A DNA stretch of 52,450 nucleotides, from contig JAJRTN010000047.1 of assembly GCA_024278275.1 (NCBI GenBank), positions 1 to 52,450 on the forward strand, written 5' to 3'. Under the pieces are notes generated by a model. It had not been told where the DNA came from. It saw only the letters and a list, made by a program, of their open reading frames with translations, and did no database searches. The translations under genes and the position numbers were made by a program. The DNA comes from Candidatus Hydrogenedentota bacterium. GTDB lineage: Bacteria; Hydrogenedentota; Hydrogenedentia; Hydrogenedentales; JAJRTN01. Numbering within the stretch: position 1 is the stretch's first letter; the number at the start of each line of letters is the position of its first letter. Shown in pieces: positions 2,756 to 26,880 of the stretch.

Positions 2756-4362
2756 CGCAGTATCTCCGCCAGTTCGGCCACCTGGAGCGCCTTCACCCCC
2801 AGGCGGCGCGCGTAGACCTGCGCGCTGGTCGGGCGGATCCGGGCCGCACGCAGGCATGCCGCGTCAAACAGTACCTCCCGCGGCGGACCGTCGGCGATGA
2901 TGCCGTGATCCGCGAGCAGGACCACGCGGTTCGCGTGACGGGCCGCCGTGTCCACATCGTGGGTGCAGAAGACGAGCAGGTCCAATCCCGCCGCCAGGCC
3001 GTCCATCATGCGTTCAATCTGGTCGCGATCCTGCCCCGTGGTGGGCTCATCCAGCAGCACCACGCCGGGCCGCATGGAAAGGATGGAGGCCACCGCCGCG
3101 CGCAGCCGTTGGCCGCGGGAAAGGGCGAAGGCGGGTTCTCCGGTGTGCTGAAGCAGGCTCATCCGGTCCAATGCCGCCCTCGCCCGGCGTTCCGCGTCCT
3201 CCTGCGTCAGGCCCTGGTGTCGCGGGGCGAAGAGAGCCTCGTCCAATACGGTCAGCTGAAACAGCATCAGGTCGGGCTGCTGCACCATCAGGCCGATACG
3301 GGGCGGGGGCGCGGCGTGCCAGGCCACCGTCCCCGGCGCGGCGCGCAGGGCTCCGGCCAGCAGGTTCAGGAGCGTGGACTTCCCGGAGCCGTTGCCGCCC
3401 ATGAGGGCCACGCGGTCGCCGCGCCGCAGGTCGAGGTTGACCCCGTCGAGCACGGGATCCATGTGCCGCCCATAGGCGAAACGCAGGTCATGCAAGGAGA
3501 CCACCGGCTCCCGTGACGCGGCGTCGCCGGATGGGGGCGCCATGGGATGGCGCACTTCGAGCAAGGGCGCTTCCTCGGGCGCAAAGGGGCGCTCCCGCCG
3601 GCCAAGACGGCAAAAAAGGTCAGGCATGTGGGGCAGGGAAAGCCCCAGTTTCCGCAGGGGCGCCAGATCGAGAAAAGCCTGCTTCGCCGCCCAATCGCCG
3701 CGCACGCGCCCCGCCTCCATCACCACGACGCGGTCGGCGAGACGCGCCACCTCTTCGAGGCGATGTTCCACCACCAGCACGGCCTGGTCATACTCCGCCA
3801 TGAGCCGGGCCAGGGTGGCCAGGATCTCGTCGGCACCCTCGGGGTCGAGTTGGCTGATCGGCTCGTCAAGGAGCAGCACGCTCGGATTCATAGCCACGGC
3901 GCAGGCGATGACCAGTCGCTGCTTCTGCCCGCCCGAAAGGGTTTCCACGGGCTGGTGGCGTACCTCGGCCAGCCCCACCAGCGCCAGGGCCTCATCGATG
4001 CGGACCCCCATCTCGGGCCGGGGCACCGCCATATTTTCCAGTCCGAAGGCCACCTCGGTCTCCGGGGTCGCCGTACAGAGCTGGGTGTCGGGGTTTTGAA
4101 AGACCGACCCCACGAACCGGCATAACCGGTCCAGCGGCGTGGTGCGCACGTCGTGATCCACCACCCGGATGACGCCTTCGACGCGGGCGTCGCTTTCGTG
4201 GAGCAGCACGCCGTTGATACAGTTGATAAGGGTGGATTTGCCGCAGCCCGTGGGTCCGCTCACCAGCACCAGTTCCCCCGGCGCGACGTGGAGATCCACC
4301 GCCGAAAGGGTGGGTTCGACGCGGGTGCCGTAACGGACCGTGACCTGGCGCAAGTCAATCAT
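2752..4362 (-). CDS. ECF transporter ATPase, two ABC domains fused
   Basis: A 536-residue double ATPase that energises ECF transport. Domain 1 (about 1-240) has Walker A GPTGCGKST near residue 36, signature LSGGQKQR near 139, Walker B VLLLDEP near 164 and the switch His in VEHRLEE. Domain 2 (about 280-536) has Walker A GGNGSGKST near 320, a degenerate signature LSRGQRLR near 415, Walker B VLLDEPTTGQD near 437 and FCTHD. Fusing the EcfA and EcfA' halves in one chain is known from YkoD-type systems. The ATG at 4362 overlaps the S-component stop (ATGA), and the 3' end overlaps ecfT the same way. The same frame stays open upstream to 5220, but it is antisense-independent shadow of the S-component gene and is rejected as an N-terminal extension. 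The LSRGQ signature makes the second site potentially asymmetric. Confidence 0.9.
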   Translation of the reverse strand: MIDLRQVTVRYGTRVEPTLSAVDLHVAPGELVLVSGPTGCGKSTLINCINGVLLHESDARVEGVIRVVDHDVRTTPLDRLCRFVGSVFQNPDTQLCTATPETEVAFGLENMAVPRPEMGVRIDEALALVGLAEVRHQPVETLSGGQKQRLVIACAVAMNPSVLLLDEPISQLDPEGADEILATLARLMAEYDQAVLVVEHRLEEVARLADRVVVMEAGRVRGDWAAKQAFLDLAPLRKLGLSLPHMPDLFCRLGRRERPFAPEEAPLLEVRHPMAPPSGDAASREPVVSLHDLRFAYGRHMDPVLDGVNLDLRRGDRVALMGGNGSGKSTLLNLLAGALRAAPGTVAWHAAPPPRIGLMVQQPDLMLFQLTVLDEALFAPRHQGLTQEDAERRARAALDRMSLLQHTGEPAFALSRGQRLRAAVASILSMRPGVVLLDEPTTGQDRDQIERMMDGLAAGLDLLVFCTHDVDTAARHANRVVLLADHGIIADGPPREVLFDAACLRAARIRPTSAQVYARRLGVKALQVAELAEILR

Positions 4363-9008: not shown

Positions 9009-11816
9009 GTGTGTTCCTCCCAGGGAGGATACAGTCTCTTGCAGGCACGACAACCCAACGGGGCCGGTTCGCCGCATTCCGCCGAAGCACCACGCGTCGA
9101 ACACTTCGATTTTTCCTCGTCCGATGATCGTTCCGGTCCTCTATCCATGTTGTTCTCTCCCCGGGCCGTCGCGGTAATTGGAGCCACGGATTCCGCCGAC
9201 AGTAACGGGCGAACGGTACTCTGGAACCTGGTGAGCAATCCCTTCGGGGGCACCGTCTACGCGGTCAACCCGAAGAGACACAGTGTGCTGGGCATCAAGG
9301 CCTATCCCGATCTTGCCTCGCTCCCCGAGCCGATTGATCTCGCCGTGATCGTTTCCCCGGCGCACGAAGTGCCGACGATCATCCAGGATTGCGCGGCGGC
9401 AAAGGTGGGGGCCGCCATCATTATGTCGAGCGGATTCGCGGAGTGCGGCCATGAAGGGGCGCGTCTCCAGGAAGCCATGATGAAAGAGGCCCGCCGTGGC
9501 GGCGTGCGTGTCCTCGGTCCAAGCTCTTTCGGTGTCATGTGTCCTCCCGCGGGTATCAGCGCCAGCGTGGCGGCGGCACCCGCCCGGGCGGGAAGCGTCG
9601 GCTTCATCAGCCAGAGCGCGGCCCTCTGCGCATCCATCCTGGACTGGAGCTTTCGGGCCAGTTTGGGGTTCAGCGCTTTTGTATCGGTAGGCGCCATGGC
9701 GGACATCGCCTGGGGCGACCTCATTTACCATCTCGGCGACGACCCCGCGACACAAAGCATCGTCATCTACATGGAAACCATCGGCGACGCGCGGGCCTTT
9801 CTCAGCGCGGCCCGCGAGGTGGCCCTGAGCAAACCCATCATCGTGTTGAAGGCCGGTCGCACCGAGGCCGCCGTCCAATCCGCCATTTCTCACACGGGCG
9901 CGCTCGCGGAAAGCGACGAGGTCACCTCCGCGGCGTTCCGCCGGAGCGGCGTGCTTCGCGTGGACGACATGGAAAGCCTTTTTTACATGGCCGAGGTGCT
10001 GGGAAAGCAGCCGAGCCCCAGGGGACCACGCCTCACGGTGATCACCAACGCGGGCGGTCCCGGCGTGTTGGCCACGGACGCACTCATCGCGGGCGGCGGA
10101 AAGATCGCCGAGCTTGAGAAAGAAACGGTCGCCGCCATGGACGAACTTCTCCCGCCCCGGTGGATGCGCCGGAACCCGGTCAACCTGCAGGCCGACGCCA
10201 CGCCGGAGCGCTACAGCCAGACCCTGGCCCTGGCCCTGGAGGATGAAAACACCGACGGGGTATTGCTCATCCTCACCCCCCGCACCGCCACCGACCCCAC
10301 GAAGACGGCGGAGGCCATTCGGGAATGTGCCGGACTGGGACGCAAACCCGTGCTGGCGAGCTGGATGGGCGGCGCGGATGTGGCCTTCGGCGCGTCGCTG
10401 CTCAGTGACGCCGGAATTCCGACCTTCTCCTACCCCGATACGGCGGCCCGCGTCTTCAACTACATGTGGCGCTACAGTTACAATCTGCGTGGCATCTACG
10501 AGACGCCGGCCCTCGCGGCGTCCCGGCACGAAACCGAGCCCGACCATGGGCGGGTGGAGAGCATGATCCAGTTCGCCCTCGAAGGAGGGCGTGACGCCCT
10601 GGCGGAACATGACTCAAAGGAATTGCTTTCCGCTTACGGTGTTCCCGTGGTGGAAACGCAGGCCGCCCGAAGCGTGCATGACGCCCTGGTTGCCGCTGAT
10701 GATATCGGCTATCCTGTCGTCCTCAAGCTCTGTTCCGACACCATCGCGCACAAGAGCGACGTAGGCGGCGTGCAGCTCAACCTGAACGACGGCGACGCCG
10801 TGCGCCGCGCCTTCGATACCATCGAAACCAACGTCGGGGAACGGGCCGGCGAGGAACACTTCCAGGGCGTCACCGTGCAGCCCATGATCCAGGCCAACGG
10901 CTACGAGGTCATCCTCGGAAGCGCCATCGATCCCCAGTTCGGCCCCGTACTCATTTTCGGCGCCGGGGGGCAATTGGTCGAGTACATGCGTGACCGCGCC
11001 CTGGCGCTGCCACCGCTCAACAGTACGCTGGCCCGACGCATGATGGAGCAGACCAGTATCTTCCGCGCCATCCAGGCAGGCTGGGGCGGTGCCGCCATCG
11101 ACATCGCACGCCTGGAAGAATTGCTCGTGCGCTTCAGCTATCTCGTGGCCGAGCAACGCTGGATCAGCTCGGTGGACATCAATCCCCTGCTGGTGGGCCC
11201 CGATCGTCTGATCGCCCTGGACGCGGTGGTGGCTCTCCACCCGCGGGACACGAGGGCCAGCGGTTTCCCGAGACTGGCGATACGGCCTTATCCGTCGGAG
11301 TATGTGTCGAGTTGCACGCTCAAAAACGGAGACACGGTGACCTTGCGTCCCATCCGGCCCGAAGACGAGCCCCTCATGGTGCGCTTCCACCAGACCCTTT
11401 CCAACGACACCGTCTACTACCGCTACCTCGGTCTGCTGGCCCTCGATGAACGGATCCGGCACGAGCGCCTGGTCCGTCTGTGTTTCATCGACTACGACCG
11501 GGAACTGGCCCTCGTGGCGCAACAGGAAGATCCCGAAAGCGGGGAGCGGGCCATTCTGGGCATCGGCCGTATCATCCGCATGCACGGTTCAGACGATGCT
11601 GACTTCGCCGTCGTCATCAGTGACGCCCGGCAGGGCCTGGGACTGGGCACGCATCTGCTTAAGCGGATGATCGAGGTGGCCCGCAGCGAGGGCATCGCCC
11701 GGCTTCACGGTGATGTGCTGCCCGAAAACCGGGCGATGCTGGCACTCTGTGCCCGCCTCGGTTTCCGGGAACACCGCAGAGAACGGGAAACGGTGACGGT
11801 GGAGATGACCTTGTGA
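9009..11816 (+). CDS. ADP-forming acyl-CoA synthetase fused to GNAT acetyltransferase
   Basis: A 935-residue fusion. Order: CoA-binding Rossmann domain (about 47-170, starting [14 protein letters not shown]); succinyl-CoA-ligase-like domains carrying His295 in [13 protein letters not shown], the phospho-histidine position of ADP-forming acetyl-CoA synthetases; ATP-grasp domain (about 535-765, [21 protein letters not shown]); then a C-terminal GNAT domain (about 778-935, [19 protein letters not shown] acetyl-CoA loop). The architecture matches Pat/PatZ-type protein acetyltransferases. In PatZ the synthetase domain is reported to lack the catalytic His, which is kept here, so acyl-CoA/ATP interconversion remains plausible. 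The start is uncertain: GTG at 9009 lies 16 bases from TAAGGAGG, while an in-frame TTG at 9039 has AGGGAGG 10 bases upstream. The 3' end is duplicated downstream (12628-12702). Confidence 0.9.
11683..11816 (+). repeat. Direct repeat copy 1 (3' end of GNAT domain)
   Basis: Two blocks of this gene tail recur downstream. The 20 bases 11683-11702 equal 12628-12647. The 57 bases 11760-11816 equal 12646-12702 except for one base (c at 11810, g at 12696). The roughly 57-60 bases between the blocks are absent from copy 2. This copy encodes the real C terminus of the acetyltransferase domain. Confidence 0.92.
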
Positions 11817-12682
11817 GCAAACCGACCACGAGGAATGGGCCGGTTGTTGTACGTGGACTCATTGAGGATTTTCGGGTTATCCACGGCGGCTCACCACCAT
11901 GGGCGTGGCCGTTCGTGCCCTCCGTCCCTTTCGTGGGAAAAAGATACAAGCCTGGGAAGGGATTCTTTATCTATGCGTCCGCCGAGAATCTCTCATGGCT
12001 CAATAGACAACGTGTGCCAGGCCGTTTCGTGGAGACGCGGGCCTGGAATCGTTATCGCGTCGTCTATGAAGAAAAGGGGAAAGAGAATGGCGACTTCTTC
12101 CCCGATGTAGGCATCGCACCGGTGAACCACGGGGGATTACTGGCCGCCGGACTTTTTCTTTCAGAATCTTTGGGCCTGCCGGCGAAGGCATGTCCCCGCG
12201 AATTCCTCGAATACATAGCGGTAACCAACTGGTGCAAGTTTACGGTGAAAGGTGAACGAAACCGGGATTACCTCGGGCACAGGCAATACATGCTTCCCTC
12301 TCTTCCGTTTGTGATCAGTGAACTTTCGCGATTACGGCCCCGGGTCGTGCTGATTCCCAAAGGGATCATGAATTTCCCGGTATTCGCCCGCGCCATGCAG
12401 GCGGCATCACCGGGTACGGAATTTCTCGCCGCTTATCAATTCAATGCAACCGTTGTGAACTGTCACTTGGGCGATTACCAGGAAGCGGGGGCGAGACTGT
12501 CCATAAGCTTCGAAGGATCGTCTCTCGCGCGGTGGATGGATAATCTGGCCAAGGTGCCTCGCGGTCATGCCTGGCGCTACATGGCCTATCTTGATTCCAT
12601 TGCCTCTGCCATTCCACCGCCCGGCACGCAGCGAGGGCATCGCCCGGTTTCCGGGAACACCGCAGAGAACGGGAAACGGTGA
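11813..12682 (+). CDS. Protein of unknown function, possibly uracil-DNA-glycosylase-like fold
   Basis: A 289-residue frame beginning with a GTG that overlaps the preceding TGA (GTGA). I do not recognise a family with certainty. The middle has the sequence shape of UDG-superfamily proteins: an AVTNWCKF-type strand followed by [23 protein letters not shown], comparable with 'TN-x-K ... E-x(n)-L-x-P-x-V-I-x-x-G'. A convincing catalytic motif is not visible, so this is a weak suggestion. Base composition is clearly more A/T-rich than the flanks. The last 15 or so residues are read out of frame through a duplicated piece of the upstream GNAT gene, so the natural C terminus may have been lost or replaced. 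It may be an inserted or horizontally acquired gene. Confidence 0.5.
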
Positions 12683-12702
12683 CGGTGGAGATGACGTTGT
12701 GA
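12628..12702 (+). repeat. Direct repeat copy 2 (deleted duplicate of GNAT gene tail)
   Basis: This is a near-identical duplicate of 11683-11702 plus 11760-11816, joined across a short shared CGG, with the intervening bases missing. It includes the original stop region TTGTGA (12697-12702). It overlaps the 3' end of the preceding frame in another reading frame. A duplication flanking a compositionally different gene suggests an insertion that rebuilt the target gene end, or an incomplete tandem duplication. Confidence 0.9.
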
Positions 12703-26016: not shown

Positions 26017-26880
26017 CTATTCACGCGATCCTTTTACCATCATTGCGATGGCACGCAAGGTGTCGGCATGGGTGGATACAAAGTCTTCATCGAGGATGAA
26101 CCTGAATTGTCTCTGCTTTCGGGTAAACGAAATATCGGCATCATCCAATAACGTCCCTACTTCCTCGGCCCTATCGTCGGCGACCTGAAATCCCAACAGG
26201 GATTTTTCTCCTTTACGCTTTCTCATCCAGAAGTGATTCCTGAAGGAATTCTCCCCGGCTTCGCTTAGTGCGATGTACTGCTGAAGGTATTTCAGTGTGA
26301 TACCACGATAACACCCTTCAATGGCCTTCGCCAGCGCCTTGGCGGTGCCCACCGTGGGCGCGGACCTTTTCAGCCAGTAGGCTTCGTCATAGACACGTTC
26401 AATGCCAGCACCATCTTCGACCTCCTCGTATGTGTCGAGGATCTTGGAAAAATGAAGACACATCCGCCCTTCGCTTGCCACCACGTTCACTTGGATGGCG
26501 ATGATCGGAATGGATTGGCTCAGTAACTGTATTACGTTGAAAAAGCGTTTTGTGACACACTCCGCCACGAGCACGGCGTAGTGCTGGCGTTGCGGCCATC
26601 GCCGTTTTTCGTTATCCCAATACTCGATGGTTCTGATAATGTGAGACTCATCCGTCTCCCCGAGCATGACCTCGACTTCGTACATGGAATCGTCTTCGGG
26701 ATTCTTGAGGAGGAGGTCAAGGCGGCCACCGGAACCCTGGACGCGCTCCTTGGCCACGGCCTCCAGGTCACCCAGGCCCAAACACGCAGGATTGTCGTAG
26801 ATCTGGTCCTGAAGCCAGTATTCGTTCAACCCGCACTCTCGTATACTGCGCGTTTCCGCTATTGGAATGTCCATCTTCAC
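26017..26880 (-). CDS. PD-(D/E)XK nuclease-like protein
   Basis: A 287-residue protein of unknown role. The first 110 residues look like a PD-(D/E)XK core: an early Glu in LEAVAKERV, then GGRLDLLL with the Asp, then YEVEVMLGETDESHIIRTIEYWD with the E-x-E/K strand and the helix that follows. The order matches NucS-like and other nuclease domains. The third residue is Glu-Val-Glu rather than Glu-x-Lys. The C-terminal half is charged and helical without recognised motifs. Base composition is lower in GC than neighbours, so transfer is possible. Start: GTG at 26880 or ATG two codons in (26874), both with a G-rich SD. No partner methylase or toxin/antitoxin gene adjoins it. Confidence 0.6.
   Translation of the reverse strand: MKMDIPIAETRSIRECGLNEYWLQDQIYDNPACLGLGDLEAVAKERVQGSGGRLDLLLKNPEDDSMYEVEVMLGETDESHIIRTIEYWDNEKRRWPQRQHYAVLVAECVTKRFFNVIQLLSQSIPIIAIQVNVVASEGRMCLHFSKILDTYEEVEDGAGIERVYDEAYWLKRSAPTVGTAKALAKAIEGCYRGITLKYLQQYIALSEAGENSFRNHFWMRKRKGEKSLLGFQVADDRAEEVGTLLDDADISFTRKQRQFRFILDEDFVSTHADTLRAIAMMVKGSRE

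Follow-up and report, generated by a model that had tools for sequence, protein, structure and literature searches.

A gene body with a predicted uracil-DNA glycosylase-like fold, inserted behind a host stop codon at junctions suggestive of template-switching repair

Introduction

Template switching mediated by microhomology is described by the MMBIR model (Hastings et al., 2009; PMC2621351), in which a return behind the point of collapse gives rise to a duplication and stretches from elsewhere appear at the junctions (PMC2621351). The locus described here lies in a 52,450-nucleotide stretch of DNA from a Hydrogenedentota bacterium (the window, in which positions are given unless stated otherwise). 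It resembles that model (PMC2621351) in its local duplication, in the omission of bases at a 3-nt microhomology and in a short stretch from elsewhere at one junction, and it differs in that the organism is a bacterium, the templates would have included a whole foreign gene body, the product is an open chimeric gene and a single event is supposed.

When bacteria acquire genes with neither homology nor a mobile element to help, the way in which they do so can seldom be read from sequence, whereas here scraps of the donors, the duplication and the reading frame can all still be read. The locus reads as a rare bacterial gene capture by way of messy DNA repair rather than through a mobile element's enzyme, in which the start and stop of the foreign gene (termed X below) come from scraps of two host genes. 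The predicted fold of X brings in a second described system, Brig1, an anti-phage DNA glycosylase of 261 aa with a uracil-DNA glycosylase (UDG) fold (PMC11078745).

Results and discussion

A duplicated gene end flanks a chimeric open reading frame

The features of the locus, with the basis for each assignment, are as follows.

9009–11816 (+): intact acyl-CoA synthetase (NDP-forming)-GNAT gene, the receiving locus (Pfam ATP-grasp_5, Succ_CoA_lig, Acetyltransf)
11678–11816 (+): repeat copy 1, the native 3' end of the GNAT gene (sequence comparison)
11813–12682 (+): chimeric ORF X of 289 codons, made up of a GNAT-derived start, a patch, a gene body and an out-of-frame GNAT tail (ORF list, sequence)
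11813–11815 (+): GTG start codon of X, overlapping the GNAT stop (sequence; the only sensible in-frame start)
11817–11850 (+): 34-nt filler patch, a near-copy of G000:C125:14790-14823 (own-genome BLAST, alignment, simulated genomes)
11851–12622 (+): captured body of gene X, with a UDG-like predicted fold and without native start or stop (homology, AlphaFold model)
12623–12644 (+): repeat copy 2, piece 1, corresponding to GNAT 11678–11699 (sequence comparison)
12645–12702 (+): repeat copy 2, piece 2, corresponding to GNAT 11759–11816 (sequence comparison)

Orthologues of the synthetase-GNAT gene are found in most genomes of the phylum, and many of them align through the last residue. Self-comparison of the window shows that the 3' ~139 bases of this gene (11678–11816) are repeated at 12623–12702, minus 57 internal bases. 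The repeat comprises a 58-nt block (11759–11816 and 12645–12702) that is 98% identical, with one mismatch (ACC/ACG), and a 29-nt block (11678–11706 and 12623–12651) of 93% identity. When the two copies are aligned as one repeat unit, 57 nt are missing from copy 2 between CGG microrepeats, one at each breakpoint of the omission, and 2 mismatches occur over ~80 aligned bases. Against its own genome the repeat block gives a BLAST E-value of 9e-22 and is therefore not a chance similarity. The right end of both copies is exactly the TGA stop codon of the GNAT gene.

A preliminary description of this DNA had recognised a duplicated gene tail around a more A/T-rich gene, and both parts of that description are borne out. 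Its single mismatch in the main block was correct; the repeat starts ~5 nt earlier than it stated, because the 29-nt block extends to 11678. The 870-base, 289-codon frame at 11813–12682 is as first described. The end of the GNAT gene, TTGTGA, provides the start of X, and the last residues of X are the GNAT tail of copy 2 read out of frame, up to a TGA at 12680–12682. With a start that overlaps the GNAT stop and a stop situated in copy 2 of the GNAT end, X has neither a start nor a stop of its own. The part of X that is homologous to its relatives spans residues ~13 to ~267, and full-length relatives stop where the homology stops.

The core of X (11849–12613) has a GC content of 55.0% and a GC3 of 0.60, the lowest GC3 in the neighbourhood, whereas the neighbouring genes range over 59.5–64.8% and 0.72–0.80, respectively. 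The genes around X are housekeeping or metabolic. As had been reported from inspection, no transposase or integrase was matched among the window proteins that were scanned, a part of the window's ORFs that includes the insert and its neighbours. It had also been predicted that an empty site in related genomes would show the GNAT stop followed directly by the sequence now found downstream of the repeat. X is absent from the GNAT loci retrieved from relatives, but the downstream GFO/IDH/MocA gene is absent there as well. Elsewhere in the window, a 287-aa ORF at 26017–26880 (-) has a GC3 of 0.64, lower than in most other parts of the stretch, and matches nothing in Pfam.

The left junction carries a scrap of another host gene

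When the segment 11813–12705 was searched against its own genome, the only match beyond the repeat was to contig C125 (14790–14823, 91% identity), from which the patch departs by 2 mismatches and the lack of one nucleotide, a T. Starting directly after 11816, the last base of the repeat, the patch occupies precisely the interval up to the start of homology to X relatives. On C125 the matching site is where an unrelated gene of 130 aa begins; this gene is kept in relatives at 57–60% identity from residue 2. Because relatives share this gene from residue 2, we take it to be native on C125, and C125 to be the source of the patch. The two have DNA in common and are read in different frames.

The patch scores 45.5 bits, compared with a best score of 40.1 in 30 random 5.35-Mb genomes simulated to match the genome in size and 5-mer composition. 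Its shortness weighs against it, and its BLAST E-value of ~1e-4 applies only to the search of this genome; a stronger argument than the E-value is where the patch lies, at the junction. Restoring the T of the source gives VSKPTSR followed by a stop (TAA) in the frame of X, so the present open frame depends on the deletion. This dependence would fit selection to keep the frame open, although it is no proof of it.

Origin of the insertion

We consider it on the whole probable that a horizontally acquired, UDG-fold-like gene body was inserted behind the GNAT stop through illegitimate repair in which synthesis switched templates, as in MMBIR, presumably in a single event. Synthesis would have departed from the GNAT end, next copied ~34 nt of the unrelated host gene on C125, then copied the foreign X gene, and finally returned to the sister copy ~139 nt behind its departure point, with 57 nt skipped at the CGG microhomology. 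The flanking duplication would exist because the return fell behind the departure point, and the outcome would be a new chimeric ORF, beginning with a GTG that overlaps the GNAT stop and ending at a stop in duplicated GNAT sequence read out of frame. A templated stretch from elsewhere, as expected at an MMBIR-like junction, is present in the 34-nt C125 patch (11817–11850). Microhomology could be judged at two of the junctions: it is 3 nt (CGG) at the internal skip and at most the GTG at the left junction, the latter weighing against the model.

The main rival to template switching is a staggered break with fill-in, in which X was ligated into a break with an overhang of ~139 nt to leave a duplication of the target-site type, copy 2 later lost 57 nt and the likeness to C125 arose by chance. 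Such a break would require a single insertion and would account for a direct repeat flanking the insert with copy 1 intact. However, an overhang of 139 nt would be unusual, and the scheme gives no reason for a likeness to another host gene that begins at the exact junction base and spans the leading 34 nt of the insert. We regard it as unlikely.

An incomplete tandem duplication, proposed in the preliminary description, would have doubled the gene tail and X in tandem, with most of the second X then deleted. The direct orientation and similarity of the repeats fit this idea, but X is present in the genome as a single copy, and the deletion would have to end exactly at a stop codon and be joined by an internal deletion. 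On its own, duplication also leaves the arrival of X and the patch unexplained, and we judge it quite improbable.

Similarly small is the probability that we assign to an assembly artefact or chimeric contig, which comes a little lower again. The assembly is a draft of 200 contigs, but the two repeat copies are not identical (2 mismatches and a deletion), nor is the patch identical to its source (again 2 mismatches and a deletion), which speaks against an artefact because an artefact would copy exactly; moreover, the chimeric ORF is open. It had been suggested that relatives carrying the gene without the repeat would refute the preliminary reading. Such relatives exist (L040, L041 and L042), all in unrelated neighbourhoods, and it follows that the repeat is no part of a recurring element; the repeat itself is not disproved.

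Least likely of all is a site-specific element that inserts at the GNAT 3' end and brings a replacement end: the preserved GNAT end with the displaced end downstream, and the occurrence of one X relative with a tyrosine integrase near a presumed tRNA-Ser 3' fragment, would suit it, but no recombinase was matched among the window proteins scanned, the insert's only gene lacks a start and a stop, X relatives elsewhere have no flanking repeat, and the left end of the insert is host DNA. The preliminary description was right about the insertion of a foreign gene at the 3' end of another and about the duplicated tail flanking it; an element that brought a replacement end by means of a dedicated recombinase is unsupported, since no recombinase was matched among the proteins scanned and what lies at the left junction is a fragment of a different, unrelated gene of this genome.

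X is predicted to adopt a UDG-superfamily fold

Searches of Pfam, NCBIfam, PHROGs and PADLOC with X gave no match, nor did a search of Pfam with its relatives. A sequence-profile search of the PDB found no UDG chain, and the PDB sequence matches to X were rejected as chance. An earlier structure predicted from 4 sequences was poor (pLDDT 58) and its fold matches were set aside. An AlphaFold2 model of X built from six sequences reached a pLDDT of 82.6 and a pTM of 0.83. When this model was compared with the PDB using Foldseek, ranks 1–21 and most of the top matches were UDG-superfamily chains (SMUG1, UdgX and family-4 enzymes), with a best E-value of 2.7e-3, at a TM-score of about 0.3–0.4, probabilities mostly of 0.7–0.95 and TM-scores of 0.19–0.44 overall.

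Two residues, N139 (in VTNWCKF) and H218 (in VNCHL), are invariant in 6 relatives. We take them to be placed where the base-reading Asn and the catalytic-loop His are expected, a structural equivalence that we infer. X is like SMUG1, UdgX and the family-4 UDGs in that these are its best structural matches and perhaps in its invariant Asn and His; it is unlike them in having no Pfam match, in carrying YASAEN in place of the usual GxxPG-type motif and in its low TM-scores. The model suggests that X has a UDG-superfamily fold and is a distant cousin of the uracil-DNA glycosylases, which is likely but unproven.

Relatives of X are sporadic and occur in mobile or defence settings

Relatives were sought with a nucleotide pattern encoding YASAEN[LF]SW. 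This identified proteins from a member of the Phycisphaerales (53% identity), another planctomycete (49%) and a Lachnospiraceae genome (29%), together with a truncated copy in Hydrogenedentota. Pattern matches at L039 and L043 were set aside as chance, L045 was left out because it lies at a contig end and could not be checked, and G155/L055 was rejected as too weak a match. A profile search of 392 genomes of Planctomycetota, the phylum of L041, added two further relatives at 36% and 35% identity. The family occurs sporadically, in 2 of 68 genomes of the phylum of X and in 4 of the 392 (one of the four being weak), and no relative was found in the phages, plasmids and viral contigs searched. 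The truncated copy (L008:1181-1564 (-)) is the only one in the phylum beyond X. At the point where its homology to X breaks off there is a perfect 23-nt inverted repeat (1205–1267), resembling a small hairpin element.

The settings of these relatives are mobile (satellite-like) or defence-related. At L041/L056 a tyrosine integrase and a D5-type primase lie alongside the X relative, next to an Rfam match that we read as a tRNA-Ser 3' fragment; direct repeats around the L041 element were sought and none was found. The satellite-like element at L056:3372-9647 consists of the tyrosine integrase, the D5 primase, an HTH-like protein and the X relative. At L040/L057 a D5 primase, an HTH_17 protein and a weak FokI-like nuclease match are near the relative. 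Near the L042 relative lies a kinase with a likeness to PD-T4-6 models, although this match may simply reflect kinases in general. At L053:16-6584 a BrxH-like helicase, a 927-aa SIR2/LmuA/ThsA-like protein and an X relative lie in a row, possibly an uncharacterised defence locus. A defence-island setting is seen for this one relative, and the window itself is housekeeping.

Compared by description rather than by sequence, X and Brig1 (PMC11078745) are alike in their similar length, UDG-like predicted fold and sporadic occurrence, and in that one X relative adjoins SIR2 and BrxH-like genes; they differ in that relatives of X are mostly from Planctomycetota and several are in satellite-like elements. 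By this analogy X, if expressed and enzymatically active, would most likely be a DNA-base glycosylase that serves in conflict with foreign DNA and works like Brig1. X directs attention to an as yet undescribed UDG-like family with members in satellite-like elements and in a defence island; a Brig1-like anti-phage activity of this family can be tested directly. We advance only tentatively, and as rather doubtful in its full form, the idea that X is the founding member of a hitherto unrecognised family of mobile base glycosylases with a UDG fold and an anti-phage role, and that the locus is a traceable bacterial case of a functional, translationally coupled gene built by template switching from a foreign body and two host scraps.

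A structured RNA upstream of some X relatives

A folded RNA of ~125 nt lies just upstream of the X relative and is common to L041:7099-7223 (-) and L040:5747-5870 (+); it is also present at L062-L091. This RNA is no part of the X insertion finding: the RNA occurs neither in the window nor elsewhere in that genome, a match at 3380–3506 (E 0.14) being treated as chance. No match to it was found in Rfam 15. The RNA covaries strongly, with compensatory change in 32 of 45 pairs and 199 such cells compared with 47 after shuffling. Downstream of many of the copies come CGGCGCTCC and a T-run. The model has matches in 27 of the 392 planctomycete genomes, with up to 6 copies in each, and these are in the leaders of diverse genes, several preceding genes for GYF or zinc-ribbon proteins.
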